This document shows, one piece after another, positions 9,533-59,214 of a stretch of 64,000 nucleotides of DNA (position 1 is the first letter of the stretch; every line of letters begins with the position of its first letter). The notes under the pieces were generated by a model. The model was given only the letters and a program-made list of their open reading frames with translations. It was not told where the DNA came from and did not search any database. The stretch lies in the NCBI GenBank assembly GCA_004322045.1, contig SCRN01000034.1, forward strand, positions 1 through 64,000. The letters run 5' to 3'. The DNA comes from Paraburkholderia sp. (lineage in GTDB: Bacteria > Pseudomonadota > Gammaproteobacteria > Burkholderiales > Burkholderiaceae). Position numbers and translations under genes: made by a program.

Positions 9533-9706
9533 TTCTAATTGATCCAACGTTATTCCCTACTGTTTTCAGTAGTTGACAGCAAACTTCGATTTACGGTGGA
9601 TTTTCGCCATAGGCGATCAGGCGTTTGCCCTGCTCGCCATCGTCTCCCTCGCACTTTTTAGGCCGCATTCGCCTCGCGTCCGTTGTCGTCATTGAGCATG
9701 CCGCTG

Positions 9707-9727
9707 TCGCCTATTGACAATAGGCGA
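9707..9727 (+). repeat. Near-perfect palindrome upstream of the chemoreceptor gene
   Basis: TCGCCTATTG-A-CAATAGGCGA: 10-bp perfect arms around one base, about 80 nt before the chemoreceptor start. A shorter related copy, TCGCC-ATA-GGCGA, lies at about 9604-9616. The symmetry suggests an operator for a dimeric regulator. The remainder of the gap shows nothing else. Confidence 0.45.
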
Positions 9728-9803
9728 GCACCCGGGCTGCCGATATTCCTGCGGTAGGCGCTGTTCCTTGCGCTTTCCTGAACGCCCGCACGCGAGTATC
9801 GTC

Positions 9804-11366
9804 ATGTTTAAATCGCTCTCGATTCGAGGCGGCCTTGCCGCCACCATAGCCGGTTACACGGCGTTGCTGATGCTCGTCATCGGGGGCGCGCTCGTGCTGC
9901 TGTACGCCGGCCGAGCGGATCTTGCCGCCATGTATCGCGACGACACGGCGTCGCTGCTGCACTTGAAGACGAGTTCCGAACGGTTGCTCGTGTTGCGCGG
10001 TGGCCTGAGCGAAGTCGAGCAATTGATCAGCGCGGGCCAGCCTGCGCAAAAACAGATTGCCCGCCTCCATCAATTGCTCGCGCAAAGCAATGAAGAACTA
10101 GCAGCCTACCAGCACGGGCATGCGCCCGATGCGGTCGAGCAGAAAACGCTCGAAACGCTGCTCGCGCGCCGCCAAACCTTATTGGCTCAGACATTGCAAA
10201 AGGCGCTGTCGCAATTGGACAGCGACAACATGGTGGATTTCCTTTCGACGCAGCGCGAAGCCTCGCCGGCATTGTTCGCGGACTACCAAGACGCCATGAC
10301 CGCATTGGAAGACGTGCAATTGACTCGACAGAAATCGCGCTTCGAGCAAGCCGATGCGCGATTTCATCGCGCGTTGTGGGCGCTTGGCGCAGCCGCCGCG
10401 ATCGCGCTGATTCTCGGCTTTCTCATGCAACGTAGGCTTGCGCGCGCCATCGTTACGCCGGTCAATTCGGCCGTCGAACACTTCGATCGGATCGCCCAAG
10501 GCGATTTGACGCGCGGCGTCATTGTCGAGCGCGCCAACGAAATGGGGCATTTGCTCACGCGCCTCGGCCAAATGCAAACCGGATTGGCACAAACGGTGGG
10601 CCAAGTGCGGGCGGGCGCCGAAGCGATTGCAGGCGACGTACGCACGATCGCGCACGGCAACATGGAGTTGTCCGACCGCACCGAAGAGCAAGCGGCATCG
10701 CTGGAACAAGCGGCGGCCAGCATCGAGCAATTGACCGCGACCGTGCGTCAAACGGCCGACAATGCGCGCAGCGCACGCGCCTACGCGGGCAACGCCGCCG
10801 AAATCGCCGTCAAGGGCGGCGACGCGATGGCGCGTGTCGTCTCTACGATGGATGCGATTTCGGCCAGTTCGACGCAGATCTCCGGTATCGTCGGCGTAAT
10901 CGAAGGCATCGCGTTCCAAACGAACATCCTCGCGCTCAACGCAGCGGTCGAAGCCGCGCGTGCCGGAGAAAACGGACGCGGCTTCGCGGTCGTCGCCTCG
11001 GAAGTGCGCAACTTGGCGCAGCGCAGTGCGGCGGCAGCGAAGGAAATCAAAACCCTGATCGGCGATTCGACGCTGCGTGTGGATAGCGGCAGCGCGCTCG
11101 TCGGTGAGGCCGGCGCGACGATGACCGAACTCGCCGACGCCGTGGATCGCGTGCGCACCATCATCGCCGAGATCAGTCTAGCCTCGGAGCAACAGTCGAT
11201 CGGCATCGAGCAGGTCAATGCATCGGTCTCCCACATGGAGCAGGCCATGCAACGCAATGCGGCGTTGGCCGAGGAGGCGTCGGCCACCGCAGTTTCGCTC
11301 GAAGATCAAAGCCGGCGCCTGGGCGAGGCGGTGTCCCGCTTCCAACTGCCGTCGAGCACGCACTGA
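9804..11366 (+). CDS. Methyl-accepting chemotaxis protein (Tsr/Tar-like layout)
   Basis: 520-residue transmembrane chemoreceptor. TM1 at about 12-35, a periplasmic four-helix-bundle-sized domain, TM2 at about 194-214, a HAMP domain (RRLARAIVTPVNSAVEHFDRI), then the methyl-accepting domain. The conserved hairpin tip GIAFQTNILALNAAVEAARA, where CheA and CheW dock, is intact. The C-terminus ends RFQLPSSTH without a CheR-binding NWETF-type pentapeptide. The ATG at 9804 gives a normal receptor N-terminus; the in-frame upstream extension has no family match. No chemotaxis genes are nearby, so the ligand is unknown. Confidence 0.92.
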   Translation: MFKSLSIRGGLAATIAGYTALLMLVIGGALVLLYAGRADLAAMYRDDTASLLHLKTSSERLLVLRGGLSEVEQLISAGQPAQKQIARLHQLLAQSNEELAAYQHGHAPDAVEQKTLETLLARRQTLLAQTLQKALSQLDSDNMVDFLSTQREASPALFADYQDAMTALEDVQLTRQKSRFEQADARFHRALWALGAAAAIALILGFLMQRRLARAIVTPVNSAVEHFDRIAQGDLTRGVIVERANEMGHLLTRLGQMQTGLAQTVGQVRAGAEAIAGDVRTIAHGNMELSDRTEEQAASLEQAAASIEQLTATVRQTADNARSARAYAGNAAEIAVKGGDAMARVVSTMDAISASSTQISGIVGVIEGIAFQTNILALNAAVEAARAGENGRGFAVVASEVRNLAQRSAAAAKEIKTLIGDSTLRVDSGSALVGEAGATMTELADAVDRVRTIIAEISLASEQQSIGIEQVNASVSHMEQAMQRNAALAEEASATAVSLEDQSRRLGEAVSRFQLPSSTH

Positions 11367-12463: not shown

Positions 12464-13327
12464 CTACTTAACGTCCGCCACCCAGCTGGTCACGCGATCA
12501 GGGTGAGCCGACACCCATGCCTTGGCCGCGTCCTGCGGCTTGGTGCCGTTCTGCGCCGCGAGCATCACGCCATCGATCTCACCCGGCTTCCACTGGAACT
12601 TCTTCAAGAACTCGACCACCTGCGGCGCCTTCTTCTCGAGCTCCGGGTTGATCACGTTGTCGACATGCTCCGCGCCGCCGAATACCTTCTTCGGATCTTC
12701 CAGGAACTTGAGCTTCCATTTGGCGAACATCCAGTGCGGCGCCCAGCCCGTCACGACGATCGGTTTGTTCGCATGGATATCGCGCGCCAACTCGGCCGTC
12801 ATCGCGCTGCCCGAGCTCGGCATCAATTGATAGCTGAGGTTGTACGCTTTGATCGCGTCGTCAGCCTTCTTCATCACGCCAGCGCCCGCATCGATACCGA
12901 CGATCCGTCCGCTGAAATCGCTCTTTTGCGCCTCGAGATCGGCGATCGTCGTCGCTTTGACGTCGATGGGCACGACCAACCCGATCTTCGCATCGGTGAA
13001 GTTGGCGCCGAGGTCCTCGACCTTCGATTTGTATTGCTCCCAATACGCGCCGTGCGTGGCCGGCAACCAAGCAGACAGCGTGGCGTCGAGATCGCCGCGC
13101 GCCACCCCGCCCCACATCACGCCGGCCGCTACCGGCACGAGCTTGACTGGGTAACCGAGCTTCGTTTCGATGACTTGCGCCGCGACATTGGACGTCGCCA
13201 CGCTATCGTCCCATCCTTCGACGTAACCGATCTTGATCGTCGGCTTGCCATCGGCAAACGCCGGCGCCGCACTCGCGAGCGCCGCGCCCAACGCGGCGCT
13301 CAGCAGCAACTGTTTAAGCAGATTCAT
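12464..13327 (-). CDS. Glycine betaine ABC transporter substrate-binding protein (orphan)
   Basis: Periplasmic binding protein of the OpuAC/ProX type, 287 residues. Signal peptide MNLLKQLLLSAALGAALASAAPAFA with cleavage near residue 25. Tryptophans that typically form the aromatic box for quaternary amines are seen in GYVEGWDDSVATSN, SAWLPATHGAYW and VTGWAPHWMFAKW. The start is supported by CCAGGAG upstream. No permease or ATPase gene adjoins; it may share ChoVW or a distant transporter, as known for CbcX/CaiX-type binding proteins in pseudomonads. It is the last gene of the leftward betaine run, 123 nt after gbcB, with its own candidate operator upstream. Confidence 0.88.
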   Translation of the reverse strand: MNLLKQLLLSAALGAALASAAPAFADGKPTIKIGYVEGWDDSVATSNVAAQVIETKLGYPVKLVPVAAGVMWGGVARGDLDATLSAWLPATHGAYWEQYKSKVEDLGANFTDAKIGLVVPIDVKATTIADLEAQKSDFSGRIVGIDAGAGVMKKADDAIKAYNLSYQLMPSSGSAMTAELARDIHANKPIVVTGWAPHWMFAKWKLKFLEDPKKVFGGAEHVDNVINPELEKKAPQVVEFLKKFQWKPGEIDGVMLAAQNGTKPQDAAKAWVSAHPDRVTSWVADVK

Positions 13328-13413
13328 AGTGGTCTCTCCTGGTCGTCCATCCGCGGCGCGGGTGATACAGGCTTTAGATTGAATAGCCAAAAATCGTCGG
13401 TGAGTGCGTTTTC

Positions 13414-13443
13414 CGACATGCGCTTGCACGCAAGCGACCGCCG
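13414..13443 (+). promoter_or_regulatory. Candidate AraC-type operator: CGACnnnCGCTTGC element, copy 1
   Basis: CGACATGCGCTTGC at 13414-13427, with a second CGAC starting exactly 21 bp after the first (13435). It lies 87 nt upstream of the betaine-binding-protein start. The same 14-mer is found upstream of betB, and a variant (11 of 14 identical) upstream of choV, each with CGAC 21 bp on. Direct repeats two helical turns apart are the usual layout for AraC-family binding. Confidence 0.6.
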
Positions 13444-24899: not shown

Positions 24900-25006
24900 G
24901 GCGGATCCGTATTGATGGCGCGGCGCGCTTATGCTGTGGCGCCGCCGCCGTTCGTTGGCGACGGCTCTATTCTTGTCGTTCGCCCATTTCGCGGATTGAC
25001 GAATTC

Positions 25007-25035
25007 AGACGCGTTCTTTGCCTTTTCCGACACGG
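25007..25035 (+). promoter_or_regulatory. Weaker copy of the 21-bp direct-repeat element between glyA and gbdR
   Basis: GAC(n)6 with TT spacing at 25007-25020 resembles the first half of the CGACnnnCGCTTGC element (6 of 11 fixed bases). Exactly 21 bp later CGACACGGGCGTC (25028-25040) matches 12 of 13 bases of the second half upstream of choV. It lies 108 nt before glyA. Confidence 0.35.
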
Positions 25036-25371: not shown

Positions 25372-26391
25372 ATGTCGCCTGATCGCACTGCGTCGCTTTC
25401 AAACTTCGCGTTCATGGCTTTGCCCAACTTCACGATGATCGCGTTCTCGAACGCGGTCGAAGTGCTTAGGATGGCGAACTATCTCAGTGGCCAGGAGCTC
25501 TATCGCTGGACCGTCGTGAGTCCCGACGGAGGCCCGGTCACGGCCAGCAACGGGCTTGCCGTCGAGACGGTGCCGGTTGCATCGCTCCCGCAGCAACCGG
25601 ATGTCGTCTTCGTGTGCGGCGGTGTGGATGTCCAACACGCAACGACGAACACGCATCTATCGGAGTTGCGCCGCTTCGCGCGCTCGGGCGTCGCGCTCGG
25701 CAGCCTTTGCACCGGCACTTACGCGCTCGCTCGCGCGGGCTTGCTCGATGGTTACGCATGCGCGATCCATTGGGAGAACATGTCCGCGCTGAAGGAAGAG
25801 TTTCCCGGCACGCGTTTCTTGAAAGAGTTGTTCGTCATCGATCGCGATCGCATCACATGCACGGGCGGGGTCGCGCCACTCGACATGATGTTGCACCTGA
25901 TCGCCCCGCGGATCGGCACGCCGCGCGTCACGCAGATCGCCGAACAATTCATCGTCGAGCATGTCCGCGATACGAGCGCTCAGCAACGCATGCCGCTCGT
26001 GGCCCGCTTGGGATCCGCGAACAAGTCGCTGTTCGAAGTCATCGCGTTGATGGAGAACAACATCGAGGAGCCGCTATCGCGCGAGGAGCTCGCGCGGCTC
26101 GCGAACATGTCGCAGCGCCAGCTTCAACGCTTGTTCAGAGAACATCTGGGCATGACGCCCACGCACTACTACCTCACGCTGCGCCTGCGCCGCGCGCGCG
26201 AACTGCTGTTGCAAACCGACATGTCCATCATGCACATCACGATGGCGTGCGGCTTCCAATCGGCGTGTCACTTCAGCAAGAGCTATCGCGACGCGTTCGG
26301 CACCGCGCCCACGCGCGAACGCCGCAAGCAGGTGGCGCCGTTTGCCGGCGCGCCGAGCACTGCACCGGTAGAGCCCGCGCTGCACTGTTGA
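25372..26391 (+). CDS. gbdR: GlxA-family AraC-type regulator, probable GbdR
   Basis: 339-residue activator with an N-terminal DJ-1/PfpI (GATase1-like) sensing domain (LPNFTMIAFSNAVEVLRMAN; GSLCTGTYALARAGLLDG; TCTGGVAPLDMMLHL) and a C-terminal AraC HTH pair (ELARLANMSQRQLQRLFREHLG; ITMACGFQSACHFSKSYRDAFG). This architecture and its position divergent from the betaine-catabolic run match GbdR, which in pseudomonads senses betaine and dimethylglycine. A close paralogue lies in the choVWX operon, so which of the two is the true GbdR is not settled. It ends 3 nt from the convergent MocR gene. Confidence 0.8.
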   Translation: MSPDRTASLSNFAFMALPNFTMIAFSNAVEVLRMANYLSGQELYRWTVVSPDGGPVTASNGLAVETVPVASLPQQPDVVFVCGGVDVQHATTNTHLSELRRFARSGVALGSLCTGTYALARAGLLDGYACAIHWENMSALKEEFPGTRFLKELFVIDRDRITCTGGVAPLDMMLHLIAPRIGTPRVTQIAEQFIVEHVRDTSAQQRMPLVARLGSANKSLFEVIALMENNIEEPLSREELARLANMSQRQLQRLFREHLGMTPTHYYLTLRLRRARELLLQTDMSIMHITMACGFQSACHFSKSYRDAFGTAPTRERRKQVAPFAGAPSTAPVEPALHC

Positions 26392-33826: not shown

Positions 33827-35023
33827 TTAGGCTGCCTTAAGCATGCCGTGCGGATCGATGACGAACTTGCGCGGCGCGCCGCCATCGAATGCGCGGTAGC
33901 CTTCGGGCGCTTGATCGAGCGAAATGACGGTGACGTTGACGATCTTCGCGATCGGCAATCTGTCCCACAAGATCGCCTGCATCAAATTGCGGTTGTATTT
34001 CATCACCGGCGTTTGGCCCGTGTGGAACGAATGGGACTTGGCCCAGCCAAGGCCCAGCCGCAGGCTCAAGCTGCCGCGCCGTGCCGCCGGATCGGTCGCG
34101 CCCGGATCGTCCGTGACGTAAAGGCCGGGAATACCGATGGCGCCGGCCGCACGCGTGATTTCCATCAGCGAGTTCAATACCGTGGCCGGCGCTTCCTGCA
34201 TGTGCGCGTTGCCGTGTCCGTGCGCTTCGAAACCCACGCAATCGACCGCGCAGTCGACTTCCGGTTTGCCAAGAATTTGCTCGATCTGTTCGCCGACCGA
34301 AGCGTCGAGCGACAGGTTCACGGTTTCGAATCCCATTGCCTTCGCGTGCTCGAGACGCTGCGCATTCATATCGCCGACGATCGTCACCGCCGCGCCGAGC
34401 AAACGCGCCGACGCCGCGGCCGCCATGCCGACCGGGCCCGCGCCGGCGACATAAACAGTCGAGCCCGGTTTGACGCCCGCGGTGACGGCGCCGTGATAAC
34501 CCGTCGGCAAGATATCGGACAAGCAAGTCAGATCGCGGATCTTCTCGAGCGCTTGATCGCGATCGGGAAACTTCAGCAGATTGAAATCGGCATACGGCAC
34601 GAGCACGTACTCGGCTTGCCCGCCAATCCATCCGCCCATGTCGACGTAGCCATACGCGCCGCCGGCGCGCGATGCGTTCACATTCAAGCAAACGCCGGTG
34701 TGCTGATCCTTGCACATCGGGCAGCGGCCGCAGGCGACGTTGAACGGCACGGAAGCGAGATCGCCGATCTTGAGCGTCTCGACGTCGCGCCCGACTTCGA
34801 CCACCTCCCCGGTGATTTCGTGACCAAGCACGAGCCCAACGGGCGCGGTCGTGCGGCCGCGCACCATGTGTTGATCGGAGCCGCAAATATTCGTGCTGAC
34901 CACCTTCAGGATCACGCCGTGCTGGATCGAGCGGCCGCTCGGATCGACCATCTTCGGATAGTCGATCGACTGCACTTCGACCTTGCCCGCGCCTTGATAC
35001 ACGACACCTCGGTTGCTGCTCAT
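33827..35023 (-). CDS. fdhA: Glutathione-independent formaldehyde dehydrogenase
   Basis: Zn- and NAD-dependent enzyme oxidising formaldehyde to formate, 398 residues, as in Pseudomonas putida FdhA. Catalytic zinc ligands C47 (NICGSDQH) and H68 (GHE); structural zinc cysteines C98, C101, C104, C112. NAD fold AGAGPVGMAAAASA. Shine-Dalgarno AAAGGAG. It handles formaldehyde from GbcA and DgcA. It is divergent from betB, in the place that betI often holds. An inverted repeat GATCGCC-GACG-GGCGATC (35046-35063) lies in its leader. Confidence 0.94.
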   Translation of the reverse strand: MSSNRGVVYQGAGKVEVQSIDYPKMVDPSGRSIQHGVILKVVSTNICGSDQHMVRGRTTAPVGLVLGHEITGEVVEVGRDVETLKIGDLASVPFNVACGRCPMCKDQHTGVCLNVNASRAGGAYGYVDMGGWIGGQAEYVLVPYADFNLLKFPDRDQALEKIRDLTCLSDILPTGYHGAVTAGVKPGSTVYVAGAGPVGMAAAASARLLGAAVTIVGDMNAQRLEHAKAMGFETVNLSLDASVGEQIEQILGKPEVDCAVDCVGFEAHGHGNAHMQEAPATVLNSLMEITRAAGAIGIPGLYVTDDPGATDPAARRGSLSLRLGLGWAKSHSFHTGQTPVMKYNRNLMQAILWDRLPIAKIVNVTVISLDQAPEGYRAFDGGAPRKFVIDPHGMLKAA

Positions 35024-35117: not shown

Positions 35118-35176
35118 ACTCGCTCGCTGCCGTTTGCAGCGTAGTCCGCAACGGGTCGCCGCGATCGTACAAAACG

Positions 35177-35205
35177 CGACATGCGCTTGCTAGAACACGA
35201 CACGC
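35177..35205 (+). promoter_or_regulatory. Candidate AraC-type operator: CGACnnnCGCTTGC element, copy 2
   Basis: CGACATGCGCTTGC (35177-35190), identical to the 14-mer upstream of the betaine-binding-protein gene, followed 21 bp after the first base by CGACACGC (35198-35205). It lies about 94 nt before the betB start and 154 nt before fdhA. No betI gene is nearby, so another regulator must act here. Confidence 0.6.
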
Positions 35206-35298
35206 AGCGTGCGCCCCAGTCCATATCGATTGAACGGCGGACGCAAAACGCCTATCGTGGAACCCTTCGAAAGACTGACGAAAATTCTGGAGAGTTCG

Positions 35299-36777
35299 AT
35301 GACCTTGTCCTCCGTCTACGGTCCGCAGCGTCTCTACATCGGAGGGACCTACGTCGACGCGACATCCGGCACGCACTTCGAAACGTTCGACCCGGCAACG
35401 GGCGAACGCTTGGCCACGCTCGGGCAAGCGAGCGCCGCCGATATCGAACGCGCGGTGGCATCGGCGCGCGAGGGCCAGTCCGCGTGGGCCGCGCTCGGTG
35501 CGATGGCGCGCTCGCGCATTCTGCGCCGCGCGGTCGAGTTGCTGCGCGAACGCAACGACGAGCTGGCCGAACTCGAGATGCGCGACACGGGCAAACCCAT
35601 CGCCGAAACACGCGCAGTCGACATCGTGACGGGCGCCGACGTAATCGAGTACTACGCCGGGCTCGCGCCCGCGCTCGAGGGACGCCAGATCCCCTTGAGA
35701 GAGGACTCGTTCGTCTATACGCGGCGCGAGCCGCTCGGGGTCTGCGCCGGGATCGGCGCTTGGAATTACCCGATTCAGATCGCCTGCTGGAAATCGGCGC
35801 CGGCGCTCGCCGCGGGCAATGCGATGATTTTCAAGCCGAGCGAAATCACGCCGCTGTCGGCGCTCAAGCTCGCGGAAATCTACACGGAAGCCGGTGTGCC
35901 GCCGGGCGTTTTCAACGTCGTGCAAGGCAACGGCGCCGTCGGTGCACTGCTAGCCGAGCATCCGGCGATCGCGAAGGTATCGTTTACCGGTGGCGTGGAG
36001 ACGGGCAAGAAGGTGATGGCGCTGGCCGGCGCATCGTCGTTGAAGGAGGTCACGATGGAACTCGGCGGCAAGTCGCCGTTGATCGTGTTCGACGATGCTG
36101 ATCTCGAACGCGCGGCCGATATCGCCGTCACCGCGAACTTCTTCAGCGCGGGCCAAGTGTGCACGAACGGTACGCGCGTATTCGTTCACCGCTCGATCAT
36201 GGCGCGATTCGAAGCGCTCGTCGTCGAGCGCGTCAAGCGCATTCGCATCGGCAAGCCCTCCGATCCCGAAACGAACTTCGGGCCGCTCGCAAGCGCCGCT
36301 CAGCTCGACAAGGTGCTCGGCTATATCGAGAGCGGCAAGCAGGAAGGCGCGCGCGTCGTCATCGGCGGCAAGCGTATCGTCGACGGCGAATTCGCTCGCG
36401 GCCAATACGTGGAGCCGACCGTGTTCGGACAATGCCACGACGACATGCGTATCGTGCGCGAGGAAATTTTTGGTCCCGTGATGTGCCTGCTTGCGTTCGA
36501 CGAAGAGAACGAAGTCATCGAGCGCGCGAACGCAACGCAATACGGCTTGGCGGCAGGGGTCGTGACCGAGAGCCTCGCGCGCGCGCATCGCACGATTCAC
36601 CGTCTCGAAGCAGGCATCTGCTGGATCAACACGTGGGGCGAATCGCCTGCAGAGATGCCGGTCGGCGGCTATAAGCAATCGGGCGTCGGTCGAGAAAACG
36701 GCATCGGCACGCTCGAGCATTACACGCAGATCAAATCGGTGCAGGTGGAACTCGGCCCTTATCGGCCCGTGTTCTAG
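35299..36777 (+). CDS. betB: Betaine aldehyde dehydrogenase
   Basis: NAD(P)-dependent oxidation of betaine aldehyde to glycine betaine. 492 residues, normal for BetB. Catalytic Cys in [14 protein letters not shown] and general-base Glu in MELGGKSPL; the BetB signature [19 protein letters not shown] is complete. The ATG at 35299 has GGAGAG upstream. betA follows after 24 nt, giving a betBA operon. Confidence 0.95.
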
Positions 36778-36801
36778 GCTCCGTTGCTAAGGAGAGCGCT
36801 C

Positions 36802-54868: not shown

Positions 54869-55858
54869 TCAATGCGCCTGCCGGCGCTCCCGGCTTGGCG
54901 CATAGCCGAACTGGGCGCGATATGCTTTGCTGAAATGACAGGGCGATTGGAAACCGCAAACCGAGGTGACGCGCGCGATCGACGTATCGGTCGTTCTGAG
55001 CAAGTCGCGCGCGCGCCGCAGCCTCAGCGAAAGGTAGTAATGCGTTGGCGATACATCGAGGTACACCTTGAACATGCGTTGCAGGTGACGCTGCGAGAGC
55101 CGCACGAGGCGCGCCAGTTCCTCGAGCGACAGCGGCTCTTCGATGTTGGCCTCCATGAGCCGTACGACTTCGATCAATTCGGCTCGCGAAAAACCGATGC
55201 GCGCATCGACCGGAATCGGTTGATGGTCGGAAGCGCTGCGGATTCGCTCGAGAATGAACTGGGCGGAAACCTGCGCGGCGAGATTGCGGCCGCACCGCTC
55301 GCCCACGAGATGCAGCATCAAATCGAGCGGCGCCGTGCCGCCCGTGCAGGTCAAACGGTCTCGATCGATGACGAAGAGTTCGTCGGAGAACTTCACACGC
55401 GGAAATTCCGCGTGCAACGCCGACATGTCCTCCCAATGCACGGTGCAGCGATAGTCGTCGAGCAAGCCGGCGCTCATGAGCGCATAAGCGCCCGTGCACA
55501 GCGCGCCGAGCGGCACGCCGCGCGCGCCGAGATCGGCGAGCAGCGCCTTCACGCGCGTATCGACCACACTGCGAATTTGCGTGCCCCCGCAGACGATCAG
55601 GACGTCGGGCACGCCGACTTCCTCTAGGGTACGCGTGGGCGTGACCGTCACGCCGTTGCTGGCTCGCACCGGCACGCCGTCGGTCGAGATAACCGACCAA
55701 CGGTAGTGCGAGGCGCGGCCGACATAGTTCGTCATCCTAAGGACTTCGACGGCGCTCGTGAATGCGATCATCGAAAAGTTCGGCAGCGTCAGAAACCCGA
55801 AGTGGACGGGGGGCGCGAACTGAGCCGCTTCAGGCTGCATCACGGTGGCGGGCGTCAT
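54869..55858 (-). CDS. GlxA-family AraC-type regulator within the cho operon (GbdR paralogue)
   Basis: 329 residues, same layout as the gbdR candidate and clearly close to it (LPNFSMIAFTSAVEVLRMTNYV against LPNFTMIAFSNAVEVLRMANYL; HTHYYLSLRLRRARDLL). DJ-1/PfpI sensor then AraC HTH pair. It begins 16 nt after choW with GAGG upstream and is followed by choX, so it is co-transcribed with the choline transporter. It may sense choline or betaine; either this or the 25-kb paralogue could bind the 21-bp direct-repeat element. Confidence 0.85.
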   Translation of the reverse strand: MTPATVMQPEAAQFAPPVHFGFLTLPNFSMIAFTSAVEVLRMTNYVGRASHYRWSVISTDGVPVRASNGVTVTPTRTLEEVGVPDVLIVCGGTQIRSVVDTRVKALLADLGARGVPLGALCTGAYALMSAGLLDDYRCTVHWEDMSALHAEFPRVKFSDELFVIDRDRLTCTGGTAPLDLMLHLVGERCGRNLAAQVSAQFILERIRSASDHQPIPVDARIGFSRAELIEVVRLMEANIEEPLSLEELARLVRLSQRHLQRMFKVYLDVSPTHYYLSLRLRRARDLLRTTDTSIARVTSVCGFQSPCHFSKAYRAQFGYAPSRERRQAH

Positions 55859-55874
55859 GCTGGCCTCGTTCGCT

Positions 55875-56783
55875 TCAGCTTTGCGTCGCGGGCTGCTGGG
55901 CGCTGCCACGCAGCCGCATCACATTGCGCAACCCTTTGAAACGCGGCGCGTTCGCCGTCCCGGGCGTGCGGCCGAAGCTTTCCGTAATGCGATCGAGAAT
56001 GATCGCCAGCAACACGACGGACAGGCCGCTTTCGAACCCGAGACCGATATCGAGCCGTTGAATACTGGCCAGCACGTCGTTGCCCAGGCCGCCGGCTCCC
56101 ACCATCGACGCAATGATCACCATCGAGAGCGCCATCATGATCGTCTGATTGACGCCCTGCATGATCGAGGGCAACGCGTTCGGAAACTGCACCTTGTAGA
56201 GCAACTGCAACGGCGTGCAACCGAACGCCTGCCCCGCTTCGACGATTTCGCGATTGACGTGGCGAATCCCGAGGCTCGTCAGGCGCACCGCGGGCGGCAT
56301 CGCGAAGATGACTGTCGACAGAATGCCCGGAACGCGGCCGAGACCGAACAGCATCGCCGCCGGAATCAGATAGACGAACGCCGGCATCGTCTGCATCAAA
56401 TCGAGAATCGGCCTCACGACGAGGGCGACATGCTTGTCCTTGGCCGTCCAAATGCCCAGAGGAATGCCGAATACGAGGCTGATCAGCGTCGATGACAACG
56501 TCAGCCCGAGCGTGATGACCGTCTGATCCCAGAACCCGGTCGCGTAAATCAACAGCAACGACAGCGTGGTGAAGAGCGCAAAGCGCCAGCCGACACGCCA
56601 GAGCCCTACGGCGATGAAGCACGCCATCAGCGCCCACATCGGGATGATTTGCAAGCCGTGTTCGACGAGCGCGGCGAAGGCTTCGATCCCGCGGCCGATC
56701 GTATCGAAGGTGCGGCTGTCGTGATCGAGCAGATAGTGGACGGATTGGTCGACCCAAGTGCCGAGCGGAATGAGTTCAGACAT
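55875..56783 (-). CDS. choW: Choline ABC transporter permease
   Basis: 302-residue inner-membrane permease with six or so helices and the EAA-type loop EIVEAGQAFGCTPLQLLYKVQFPNALPSI. The ProW/OpuAB-type BPD domain is complete (TLSSTLISLVFGIPLGIWTA; GAGGLGNDVL). ATG overlaps the choV stop by 8 nt. Pairs with ChoV and ChoX. Confidence 0.93.
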   Translation of the reverse strand: MSELIPLGTWVDQSVHYLLDHDSRTFDTIGRGIEAFAALVEHGLQIIPMWALMACFIAVGLWRVGWRFALFTTLSLLLIYATGFWDQTVITLGLTLSSTLISLVFGIPLGIWTAKDKHVALVVRPILDLMQTMPAFVYLIPAAMLFGLGRVPGILSTVIFAMPPAVRLTSLGIRHVNREIVEAGQAFGCTPLQLLYKVQFPNALPSIMQGVNQTIMMALSMVIIASMVGAGGLGNDVLASIQRLDIGLGFESGLSVVLLAIILDRITESFGRTPGTANAPRFKGLRNVMRLRGSAQQPATQS

Positions 56784-57945
56784 GGGAGCCTCGCGTGCGG
56801 GTGATGGCTTGAAGGACGACGGCGCGATCGACCGAGCCGCAATAGCAGCCGTCGTCGTCGACGACGGGCAGGGCGCGCGCATTGGCTACGACACGCGAGA
56901 CGACCTGGTCGAGCGGCGCGCTGCGCGCGATCGAATCGACCTGCGTGAGTTCCGGGCTACTCGCGCCAAGCGCCTCGCGCGTGACGAAGCCGCGAAATTT
57001 GCGCTGCGCATCGAGCACGAATGCGTAATCGGCGCTGCCGTTCAGCGAAGCCGCAATGCCGGCGGCATTGAACTGCCTGACGAGCGGCACGGCGTCGGTC
57101 TGCATCAAGTCGCCCGCCGTCAGATAGCGGCTCGTGTCGACACCCTCGAAAAAAGCGCGGACGTAATCGTTCGCAGGTCGGCTGATGATTTCCTGCGGCG
57201 TGCCGAGTTGCACGAGACAGCCGCCTTCCATGATCGCGATGCGGTTGCCGATGCGCAGCGCCTCTTCCAAATCGTGCGAGACGAACAGAATCGTGCGGCG
57301 CTGCTCTTTTTGCAGTTGCAGCAACACGTTCTGCATTTCCTTGCGCTTGAGCGGATCGAGCGCCGAGAACGCTTCGTCCATGATCATCAGCGACGGGTTC
57401 ACGGCAAGGGCTCGAGCCAGGCCCACGCGCTGCTGCATGCCGCCCGACAGCTCGGCCGGCAGCTTATGAGCGAACGGCGCGAGCCCGACTTGCTCGAGAA
57501 CCGTCATCGCGCGTGCTTCGCGCACCTTGCGCGAAAGCCCGGCCACTTCGAGCCCGAACGCCGCGTTCGACAGCACGGTGCGCTGCGGCATGAGCGCGAA
57601 GGATTGAAACACCATGCTCATGTCGGTTCGACGCAATGCGGTCAGCTCGCCGCGCCGCGCCGATGCGATGTCGCGTCCGTCGATCAGCACGTGGCCCGCG
57701 GTCGGGTCGACGAGCCGATTGATCAGGCGAATCAGCGTCGACTTGCCGGAGCCGGACAGCCCCATGAGGACGAAGATTTCGCCCTCGGGCACATCGAACG
57801 AAACGTTATGCACGCCGACGATCTGGCCGGTTCGCGCGAAGATTTCATCCTTCGTCGCGCCGGCGGCCAGCATCTCGAGCGCTTGCTTGGGATTCGCGCC
57901 GAATACCTTGCAGAGCCCTTGCACCCTTACCTTCGGTGAACTCAT
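56776..57945 (-). CDS. choV: Choline ABC transporter ATP-binding protein
   Basis: 389 residues: ABC ATPase with Walker A GLSGSGKST (62-70), Q-loop FQSFALMPQ, signature LSGGMQQR, Walker B LMIMDEAFSALD and the H-loop SHD, followed by a C-terminal CBS-pair-like domain as in ProV/OpuAA. Shine-Dalgarno AAGGAG. First gene of the cho operon; the 345-nt divergent gap to the TorF gene carries the shared CGACnnnCGCTTGC element. Confidence 0.94.
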   Translation of the reverse strand: MSSPKVRVQGLCKVFGANPKQALEMLAAGATKDEIFARTGQIVGVHNVSFDVPEGEIFVLMGLSGSGKSTLIRLINRLVDPTAGHVLIDGRDIASARRGELTALRRTDMSMVFQSFALMPQRTVLSNAAFGLEVAGLSRKVREARAMTVLEQVGLAPFAHKLPAELSGGMQQRVGLARALAVNPSLMIMDEAFSALDPLKRKEMQNVLLQLQKEQRRTILFVSHDLEEALRIGNRIAIMEGGCLVQLGTPQEIISRPANDYVRAFFEGVDTSRYLTAGDLMQTDAVPLVRQFNAAGIAASLNGSADYAFVLDAQRKFRGFVTREALGASSPELTQVDSIARSAPLDQVVSRVVANARALPVVDDDGCYCGSVDRAVVLQAITRTRGSHV

Positions 57946-58030
57946 CTCTTCCGTCTCCTTGCGGCAGGCCGACGCCTGCACAGTCTGCCTACATGGTTGC
58001 GAGAAAAATCCCCGGGTGGCCGACGAATTC

Positions 58031-58059
58031 CGACGCACGCTTGCGAAAATGCGACACGC
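58031..58059 (+). promoter_or_regulatory. Candidate AraC-type operator: CGACnnnCGCTTGC element, copy 3
   Basis: CGACGCACGCTTGC (58031-58044) then CGACACGC starting 21 bp after the first base (58052). It lies 86 nt upstream of choV. The second half continues into an 18-bp block also found before fdhA. A further CGACATGC lies on the minus strand at 58151-58144 without a partner. Confidence 0.6.
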
Positions 58060-58290
58060 GCGTCGCCCCAGAACCCCCTTGTCTCCCGCCGAGCGCCGAA
58101 GCATAAGGCCGCGCGCCCTAAATGCAAACCGTGCACGCAATCGGCATGTCGCGAAAGCACAAATTTCCGTCCAAAAACGCCTCGGCACGGCGCATATCGG
58201 CTGGCAATACTCAGCCAACCGGATCCGCACCCGATAAGCATCCAAAAGAGGTGGCCGGTCATACCGATTACAACGACGACGGAGCGCATC

Positions 58291-59214
58291 ATGACTTACC
58301 CGAAAACAAAGTCACGCCTCAAATCGACCGCGCTTGGCGGCGCGGCGCTTTTGGTCGGTTCTCTGTATGCGCACACTACGCTTGCGCAGACGGCCGAACC
58401 GAGCGGCGCGAGTGCGCCGGCCGCAACGGCGGCGGCGCCCGATCCGGCGGCAACGGCGGCGAGCGCACAGCCGGCGGCCCCGGCAGCGCCCGCCGCTTCT
58501 CCGTTCACCGCCAACGTCACGCTTGCTTCGCAATACGTCTCGCGCGGCTTCCGGCAGACCTGGGGCAAACCGGCGATTCAAGGCGGGTTCGACTACACGC
58601 ATTCGAGCGGGCTGTTCGCAGGAACGTGGCTGTCGAGCGTCAGCAGCAAGTTCATCGAAGGCGGCACCGTCGAGTGGGATCTTTATGGCGGATACGGCGG
58701 CGCGCTTGGCGATCTCTCGTACACGGGCACGCTTTACTACTACGTGTACCCGGGCGCGCGCATGTCGGCAAGCAACACGAGCTACAACTATGGCGAGTTC
58801 GTCGCGGCGTTGACCTATAAGTGGTTCACCGCGAAGTATTGGCTGACCTATACGCCGAATTACTTCGGCTATGACAGTCAATCGCTCGGGATAGGCAGCG
58901 GTAAGGGCAGCCGCGGCTCCGGCTACCTCGACTTGAACACCAACATCGATCTGACGCACGGCTGCTCCCTGCTCTTGCATTACGGTTGGCAGCGCGTGCA
59001 AAACTTCTCGGCGTACAACTGGCAAGACGCGAAGGTTGCCGTATCGAAGACGTTCGACGGCGGCTGGACCTTGACGGGGGCGGTGACCAAGGGCTGGGGC
59101 GCAACTAACGCCTACGATCACTACACCACGGGCGCACCCGACTCCTCGGGCAATATCGCCGTGTCGAACCCGTTGCAAACGACGTTCTTCGCGACGATCA
59201 CGAAGGTGTTCTGA
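58291..59214 (+). CDS. TorF-family putative outer-membrane porin
   Basis: 307 residues. Signal peptide (cleavage near TLAQ, about 32), an Ala/Pro-rich stretch, then the TorF family start FTANVTLASQYVSRGFRQTWGKPAIQGGFDY. Alternating strands and a C-terminal TKVF aromatic end fit an outer-membrane barrel. Divergent from choV, so it may help uptake of choline or betaine, but this is only positional. GGAG precedes the ATG by 8 nt. Confidence 0.85.
   Translation: MTYPKTKSRLKSTALGGAALLVGSLYAHTTLAQTAEPSGASAPAATAAAPDPAATAASAQPAAPAAPAASPFTANVTLASQYVSRGFRQTWGKPAIQGGFDYTHSSGLFAGTWLSSVSSKFIEGGTVEWDLYGGYGGALGDLSYTGTLYYYVYPGARMSASNTSYNYGEFVAALTYKWFTAKYWLTYTPNYFGYDSQSLGIGSGKGSRGSGYLDLNTNIDLTHGCSLLLHYGWQRVQNFSAYNWQDAKVAVSKTFDGGWTLTGAVTKGWGATNAYDHYTTGAPDSSGNIAVSNPLQTTFFATITKVF

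Follow-up and report, generated by a model that had tools for sequence, protein, structure and literature searches.

The recurrence of one short repeated element close to genes for betaine and choline metabolism raised the question of whether it is an operator, which genes it serves and what kind of protein would bind it. The original prediction described it as an AraC-type direct repeat, with halves two helical turns apart, common to three betaine/choline promoters, and our analysis supported this description. In the window, i.e., the whole 64-kb stretch of DNA analyzed here, the pattern CGACNNNCGCTTGC-N7-CGAC was found exactly at 13414–13438, 35177–35201 and 58031–58055 (operators 1, 2 and 3), always on the plus strand and nowhere else, and it did not occur in 100 dinucleotide shuffles of the window. 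Sequence comparison also confirmed that the 14-mer is the same at operators 1 and 2, that 11 of its 14 positions are common to the three sites, and that CGACACGC is present at both 35198 and 58052. In this form the element is reversed relative to the first and third genes, because both are minus-strand genes. On the opposite strand, i.e., the minus strand, to which we assign all three operators, it becomes KGTCGY-N6-GCAA-N5-YGTCG, two half-sites 21 bp apart, with individual readings of GGTCGC-TTGCGT-GCAA-GCGCA-TGTCG, TGTCGT-GTTCTA-GCAA-GCGCA-TGTCG and TGTCGC-ATTTTC-GCAA-GCGTG-CGTCG for operators 1, 2 and 3, respectively.

Distances to start codons were 85–93 nt. Operator 1 lies 86 nt from the ATG of a betaine/choline-type ABC transporter gene for an OpuAC-type substrate-binding protein (12464–13327, minus strand; Pfam OpuAC 1.1e-69, TIGR03414 below cut-off). 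Operator 3 is 85 nt from a choV-like ATPase gene (56776–57945, minus strand), which is followed on the same strand by genes for a choW-like permease, a GbdR-like regulator and a choX-like binding protein. Operator 2 is located in the divergent gap between fdhA, coding for a glutathione-independent formaldehyde dehydrogenase (33827–35023, minus strand; TIGR02819 777.9 bits, over cut-off), and betB, coding for betaine-aldehyde dehydrogenase (35299–36777, plus strand; TIGR01804 728.7 bits, over cut-off); betA begins at 36784 on the plus strand, directly after betB. The gap from 35205 to the betB start codon is 93 nt, and the minus-strand gene at this site is fdhA, not betB. Other minus-strand genes include gbcB-/gbcA-like genes, an electron-transfer flavoprotein pair, a peptidase M19 gene, glyA, and two open reading frames with Oxidored_FMN and with DUF3483 and 4Fe-4S domains, which are called dgcA- and dgcB-like, respectively, after their presumed place in the pathway. 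Besides, operator 3 also lies in a divergent gap (58056–58291) to a TorF-type porin gene, which begins at 58291 on the plus strand.

The strict pattern was rare in the genome from which the window was taken (5,993,192 bases, 5.99 Mb, in 54 contigs): we found 4 copies, 3 of them in the window, versus 0 for the reversed-pattern control, so the prospect of many unrelated hits was not borne out. The fourth copy (C40:19432) was inside a coding sequence of the histidine-phosphatase family. When up to 3 mismatches were allowed, we counted 28 matches in the window, compared with 12.3 on average in shuffles. A loose half-site pattern with one mismatch was hardly enriched genome-wide (144 versus 116 in the control), and therefore only the strict form or conservation carries a signal. 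Across 11 genomes of the genus, GTCG-N7-GCAAGCG-N3-GTCG had 23 matches versus 3 in the control, of which 14 preceded choV, fdhA or the binding-protein gene and 9 were elsewhere. Seven of these nine fell in coding sequences of Pfam families, namely His_Phos (L004, L036), ABC transporter (L024), BCSC_C (L027), OprD (L034), AMP-binding (L035) and porin (L040); another (L039) was in an open reading frame that matched no Pfam family, and the last (L026) was upstream of a chemoreceptor gene in genome G005, on the opposite strand. Neighbouring DNA (414,534 strand-bases) had two copies of the CAA-containing form GTCG-N8-CAA-N6-GTCG.

A sequence-only model was built from 32 sites (alignment A1 left out 1 of 33 distinct sites, L044, because of a one-base slip) and run over the same 11 genomes. 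The three window sites, which are in the model by construction, gave E values of 5.3e-5, 9.2e-5 and 2.2e-4, and the next match in the same genome was intragenic with an E value of 0.109; the gap between the three sites and this next match is the informative part of the scan. In G006, a member of the genus with no match to fdhA, the binding-protein gene, choV or betB, the model had no match below 0.066. One further match below 1e-3, at G002:C1:1502487, was inside a NUDIX gene and was rejected as unrelated.

We then asked about conservation by searching 40 relatives and the genome itself (41 in total) with four proteins and looking for GTCG-N17-GTCG in the 300 bp before each gene, in the orientation of the gene. 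The genes were carried by 13 Burkholderiaceae genomes, and in these the repeat preceded fdhA, the binding-protein gene and choV in 13 of 13 cases each (39 of 39 orthologs). Since the background of this bare repeat is 0.063 per 300-bp strand, i.e., about 6% of such strands are expected to have one, chance is a very poor explanation for all 39 cases, even if the relatedness of these genomes has to be kept in mind. For fdhA, the repeat was found at 13 of 17 matches, which were all 13 best matches of the family; the matches without it were two second copies and those of G031 and G037, which belong to other families. The binding-protein gene had it at 13 of 14 matches, on the same strand, with G031 as the exception. 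After six of the 22 choV-protein matches (48–51% identity) were left out of the count, 15 of the 16 choV matches examined had the repeat: the 13 family orthologs, a paralog in G005 and the gene of G037, where the CAA core was lacking. The G031 choV gene had no repeat within 300 bp and one at 307 bp, and the six omitted matches had no element with 0 or 1 mismatch.

Alignments of the orthologous gaps showed that the operator and a downstream block were kept while the flanks had diverged. The downstream block contained −10-like cores at fixed offsets in all 13 genomes: CTACnCT at +32 before fdhA, ATGTA at +36 before choV, and a CTAAA-like core at +36 before the binding-protein gene, the last with sequence variants allowed in the search expression. 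In the window these cores, all on the minus strand, are CTACGCT at 35138–35144 (32 nt past operator 2), ATGTA at 57990–57994 (36 nt past operator 3) and CTAAA at 13373–13377 (36 nt past operator 1). Given a 17-bp spacer, the −35 position would fall at the end of the proximal half-site. Within the 39 sites, GTCG is invariant as the condition of selection; the two A's of the GNAA part were present in 39 and 38 of 39 sites, respectively, and the leading T in 26, C in 18 and G in 26. The GNAA part was visible in the distal copy only.

The element was also seen in other genera. Three megaplasmid records (Burkholderia cenocepacia, Cupriavidus and Caballeronia), in which genes were placed by tblastn, had high-scoring sites upstream of whichever of the three genes (for the binding protein, fdhA and choV) the stretch contained, except for the Cupriavidus binding-protein gene, which had no site over 11 bits. 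These records also contained three further, unassigned hits of 13–16 bits. In the Cupriavidus record, another strong and likewise unassigned operator, accompanied by a CTACTCT motif, was located some 1.4 kb upstream of fdhA (L267:23704). For fdhA, we extended the comparison to the best 80 of 474 related loci from named genomes. The repeat was located 118–197 bp before fdhA in 74 of these 80 loci, in records named Trinickia, Burkholderia, Paraburkholderia and Caballeronia, and a stricter form, within 200 bp and with CAA or AAA allowed, was likewise found in 74 of the 80. TACnCT followed the repeat at +33 in 63 of the 74 loci and at +32 in 9, and was not found in 2. Six loci lacked the repeat, two of which kept a degenerate GGCG version. 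The repeat was found in 5 of 5 loci with betB directly adjacent, 27 of 27 with betI and 42 of the 48 that had neither gene within 2.6 kb, a class that includes a few loci with a cut-off flank. Many named loci had an additional repeat some 300 bp before fdhA; these were set aside because all such loci have betI adjacent and the position is within the betI match.

These data bear on the assignment of operator 2, which had been taken to mark betB. This part of the original prediction was not supported: orientation, spacing to the −10-like motif at fixed distance, and the named fdhA loci assign the site, on sequence evidence, to fdhA and not primarily to betB. That it is a betB operator with fdhA incidental appears unlikely, even though it is 93 nt from the betB ATG, and a betB promoter, TTGAAC-17 bp-TATCGT (35230–35258, plus strand), lies 28 bp from it, a spacing shared by all nine genus genomes that have betB but no BetI match (G007 reads TATCTT). 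The element is reversed relative to betB, only 5 of the best 80 named loci have betB directly adjacent, and in G010 and G021, where betB is apart from fdhA, fdhA keeps the element while betB, after betI, is without it in the orthologous place. In G021, a bare repeat that lacks the CAA core is located 39 bp before betB; other bare repeats, 614 bp (G010) and 570 bp (G021) before betB, are where the betI reading frame lies. The spacing is not betB-specific either, because G023, which has betI, already has 29 bp.

It is quite possible, though somewhat doubtful, that operator 2 is shared in Trinickia species without betI, activating both fdhA and the divergent betBA. We found betB in 10 of the 11 genus genomes and a BetI-model match in one (G010); across all 41 genomes, TIGR03384 matches (E 1e-40) were found in five (G010, G019, G021, G023 and G031), and the genome analyzed here (G000) had none, which does not fit a BetI-controlled betIBA operon. 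The canonical betB promoter 28 bp away is consistent with a shared operator, as is the arrangement in G002, where fdhA and an operator of its own lie on a different contig and betB still has an operator before it. Compared with G008, the G002 region is identical at 23 of 25 operator positions, 27 of 29 betB promoter positions, 16 of 28 spacer positions and 21 of 45 positions on the former fdhA side; genomes with fdhA in place have 16–19 of 25, 11–18 of 28 and 31–35 of 45 for the operator (seven genomes), spacer and fdhA side, respectively, so that the operator in G002 exceeds this range and the spacer shows no such excess. An operator kept before betB without adjacent fdhA therefore suggests selection for betB, which could also be argued for a betB operator; however, this decoupled arrangement was seen in one genome only, where fdhA may have been lost recently. 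In addition, AraC operators usually act in one working orientation. It seems that betB took over the former betI promoter (35209–35299 in the window), a TTGAACGTTCAA palindrome of which survives in G023. No betI match was seen in the genome analyzed here or in 8 other genus genomes with betB. The gene beside betB in G002 is different, with TetR-like and glutathione S-transferase-like reading frames as judged by eye.

Two GATase1-AraC regulators encoded in the window are candidates for binding: candidate 1 at 25372–26391 on the plus strand (NF052371 396.2 bits; Pfam DJ-1_PfpI and HTH_18) and candidate 2 at 54869–55909 on the minus strand (NF052371 381.5 bits), which are 56% identical. Both score under the curated 480-bit cut-off of the NF052371 GbdR equivalog, and therefore we call them GbdR-like, not GbdR. 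All 13 family genomes with sites had both genes, and in each of them choV was on that contig too. This co-occurrence is weak evidence because the regulator genes share a contig with the targets. In G006, which lacks the pathway genes, only a 37% identical relative was found. When 274 genomes of the class were searched for GbdR-like proteins at E 1e-110, the two encoded in the window were the sole matches. In-frame TGA codons were reported for five matches (L127, L128, L130, L131 and L134) to the second GbdR-like gene, perhaps because the matches run beyond the end of the gene.

The element itself resembles operators of this kind of regulator. The ARG box of Pseudomonas ArgR is TGTCGCN6GNAA, present in tandem 5 bp apart with the second copy less conserved (PMC10963909). 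The same half-site, the 5 bp between copies and the weaker second copy recur here, with a 21-bp period; site 3 matches the ARG half-site exactly and sites 1 and 2 have one mismatch each. ArgR belongs to the AraC/XylS family, and its targets concern arginine, in contrast to betaine import and demethylation here, where the sixth base and the first T also vary. ArgR is also a member of the GATase1 subfamily. CdhR and GbdR belong to this subfamily as well, and the CdhR site is GGTCGC-N15-GGTCGC, again a 21-bp direct repeat of GTCGC-type half-sites bound by a GATase1-AraC regulator at quaternary-amine genes (PMC5806209). That source has CdhR governing carnitine genes from a class I position upstream of the promoter (PMC5806209); the present repeat, by contrast, adjoins the inferred −35. 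Regulation by GbdR is already known in Pseudomonas (PMC5806209, PMC12323605, PMC3170909). As cited in the first of these, the P. aeruginosa GbdR regulon likewise includes betaine catabolic and transporter genes and has a distal half-site with an essential CG pair, but one half-site is GCCGC, which differs from GTCG in the second base (PMC5806209). The element described here precedes betaine catabolism and uptake genes, in agreement with a GbdR regulon. GbdR regulation is known in Burkholderia thailandensis too, where a gbdR1/gbdR2/souR system was reportedly described by Nock and Wargo in 2016; this species likewise has two GbdR-like regulators and a choline catabolic locus. In a search of the open-access literature on GbdR and on choline in Trinickia, we found no account of the operator.

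Two other explanations of the element were weighed. That it is a GC-rich word kept by chance or shared ancestry, with no regulatory function, is hardly credible. Loose versions are common (36 bare GTCG-N17-GTCG repeats in 64 kb, both strands), and the strict pattern also falls by chance in unrelated genes of the genus, but footprinting contradicts this explanation, as the flanks diverge while the operator and −10 core stay; the spacing is fixed and the element appears again in other genera. A different GATase1-AraC regulator, SouR- or ArgR-like (e.g., C50:87935), could be the binding protein in place of the GbdR-like pair; the half-site code is common to several regulators of this kind, and therefore DNA alone cannot name the protein. 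We consider this quite improbable. A relative of that distant paralog is present in G006, which has no match to any of the four query proteins and whose sole strict-pattern match is within a BCSC_C-type coding sequence, and both GbdR-like genes accompany choV in the family genomes with sites. Some observations do stand against a GbdR-type assignment: the sub-threshold scores of both regulators, the GCCGC half-site of P. aeruginosa, the Cupriavidus binding-protein gene, the 6 of 80 named fdhA loci without the repeat, the unenriched loose motif and the 9 of 23 strict genus matches outside the three promoters. Similarly, G031 and G037 have GbdR-like proteins and no element before fdhA, and G031 has none before the binding-protein gene.

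We conclude that the element is real and represents a conserved operator, predicted to be of GbdR type and to define a regulon. It is very probably an activator operator of the GATase1-AraC class that drives betaine import and demethylation, with either or both of the GbdR-like proteins as the most likely binding partner. In the mechanism we propose, the regulator with betaine or dimethylglycine bound would occupy the well-conserved distal and the weaker proximal half-site. The proximal half-site would abut the −35 position of promoters that have no evident −35 hexamer, and we therefore infer that RNA polymerase is recruited in a class II-like manner. Operator 2 would primarily serve fdhA, whose product would clear the formaldehyde derived from betaine demethylation, and in Trinickia species without betI it may also serve the divergent betB. 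These findings move the middle site from betB to fdhA. For the betaine/choline regulon across Burkholderiaceae, they also provide a specific operator and promoter arrangement that can be tested.

The regulon appeared to be wider than the three promoters, as the run of glyA, dgc and gbc genes and a chemoreceptor gene seemed to be included. With a matrix derived from the 39 sites (30.7 bits), the three operators, all of which belong to the matrix, scored 43.5, 38.9 and 34.5, and the next scores in the window were 15.8 at 9683 (plus strand) and 12.0 at 25003 (minus strand). The latter corresponds to a weaker candidate operator at 25007–25031 (minus strand), whose second half is GTCT, before glyA and the dgcAB-etf-gbcAB genes. 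In each of the 13 family loci it was the top-scoring match on the minus strand (range 1.4–16.9), and it was 132–164 nt from glyA in 12 of 13 (glyA was not found in the G002 stretch). A −10-like AAGAAT (24969–24974, minus strand) was at the same offset in 13 of the 14 loci compared. The glyA site exceeded 11 bits in 2 of the 3 records of B. cenocepacia, Cupriavidus and Caballeronia, and a related sequence was also found in G031.

The other weaker candidate operator (9685–9709, plus strand; matrix score 15.8) precedes a gene for a methyl-accepting chemotaxis protein with TarH, HAMP and MCPsignal domain matches (9804–11366, plus strand). At 9739–9748 on the plus strand, 29 nt past this operator, is GCCGATATTC, a putative sigma28-like −10 given its likeness to the sigma28 consensus. 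The chemoreceptor gene was beside the binding-protein gene in 7 of 13 genomes, and in all seven it had the repeat (matrix scores 3.9–15.8) and, 29 nt later, GCCGATATTC. A search of the 41 genomes with the ligand-binding part identified close homologs in 10, i.e., these seven and G010, G021 and G023, where the homologs are at other loci and 63–64% identical. The repeat was upstream in all 10 genomes with a homolog of at least 63% identity, at 168–196 bp in the latter three, and GCCGATAT was 29–30 nt after the repeat in 9 of the 10, being absent in G021. Three distant homologs (38–41%) had neither the repeat nor GCCGATAT. We tentatively suggest that in Trinickia lacking betI one operator took over both choline oxidation and fdhA, and that the regulator also acts on the sigma28-type chemoreceptor promoter. 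If this is true, betaine catabolism, choline oxidation and chemotaxis would form one feed-forward regulon. Two testable cases are raised by this, a regulator replacement in which BetI was lost and a GbdR-type site retained, and the recruitment of a chemoreceptor into a catabolic regulon. The G023 homolog of the chemoreceptor gene (L278, G023:C71:375055) lies about 2 kb or less from a GATase1-AraC gene (G023:C71:376804-377745) whose product is 44% identical to candidate 1.
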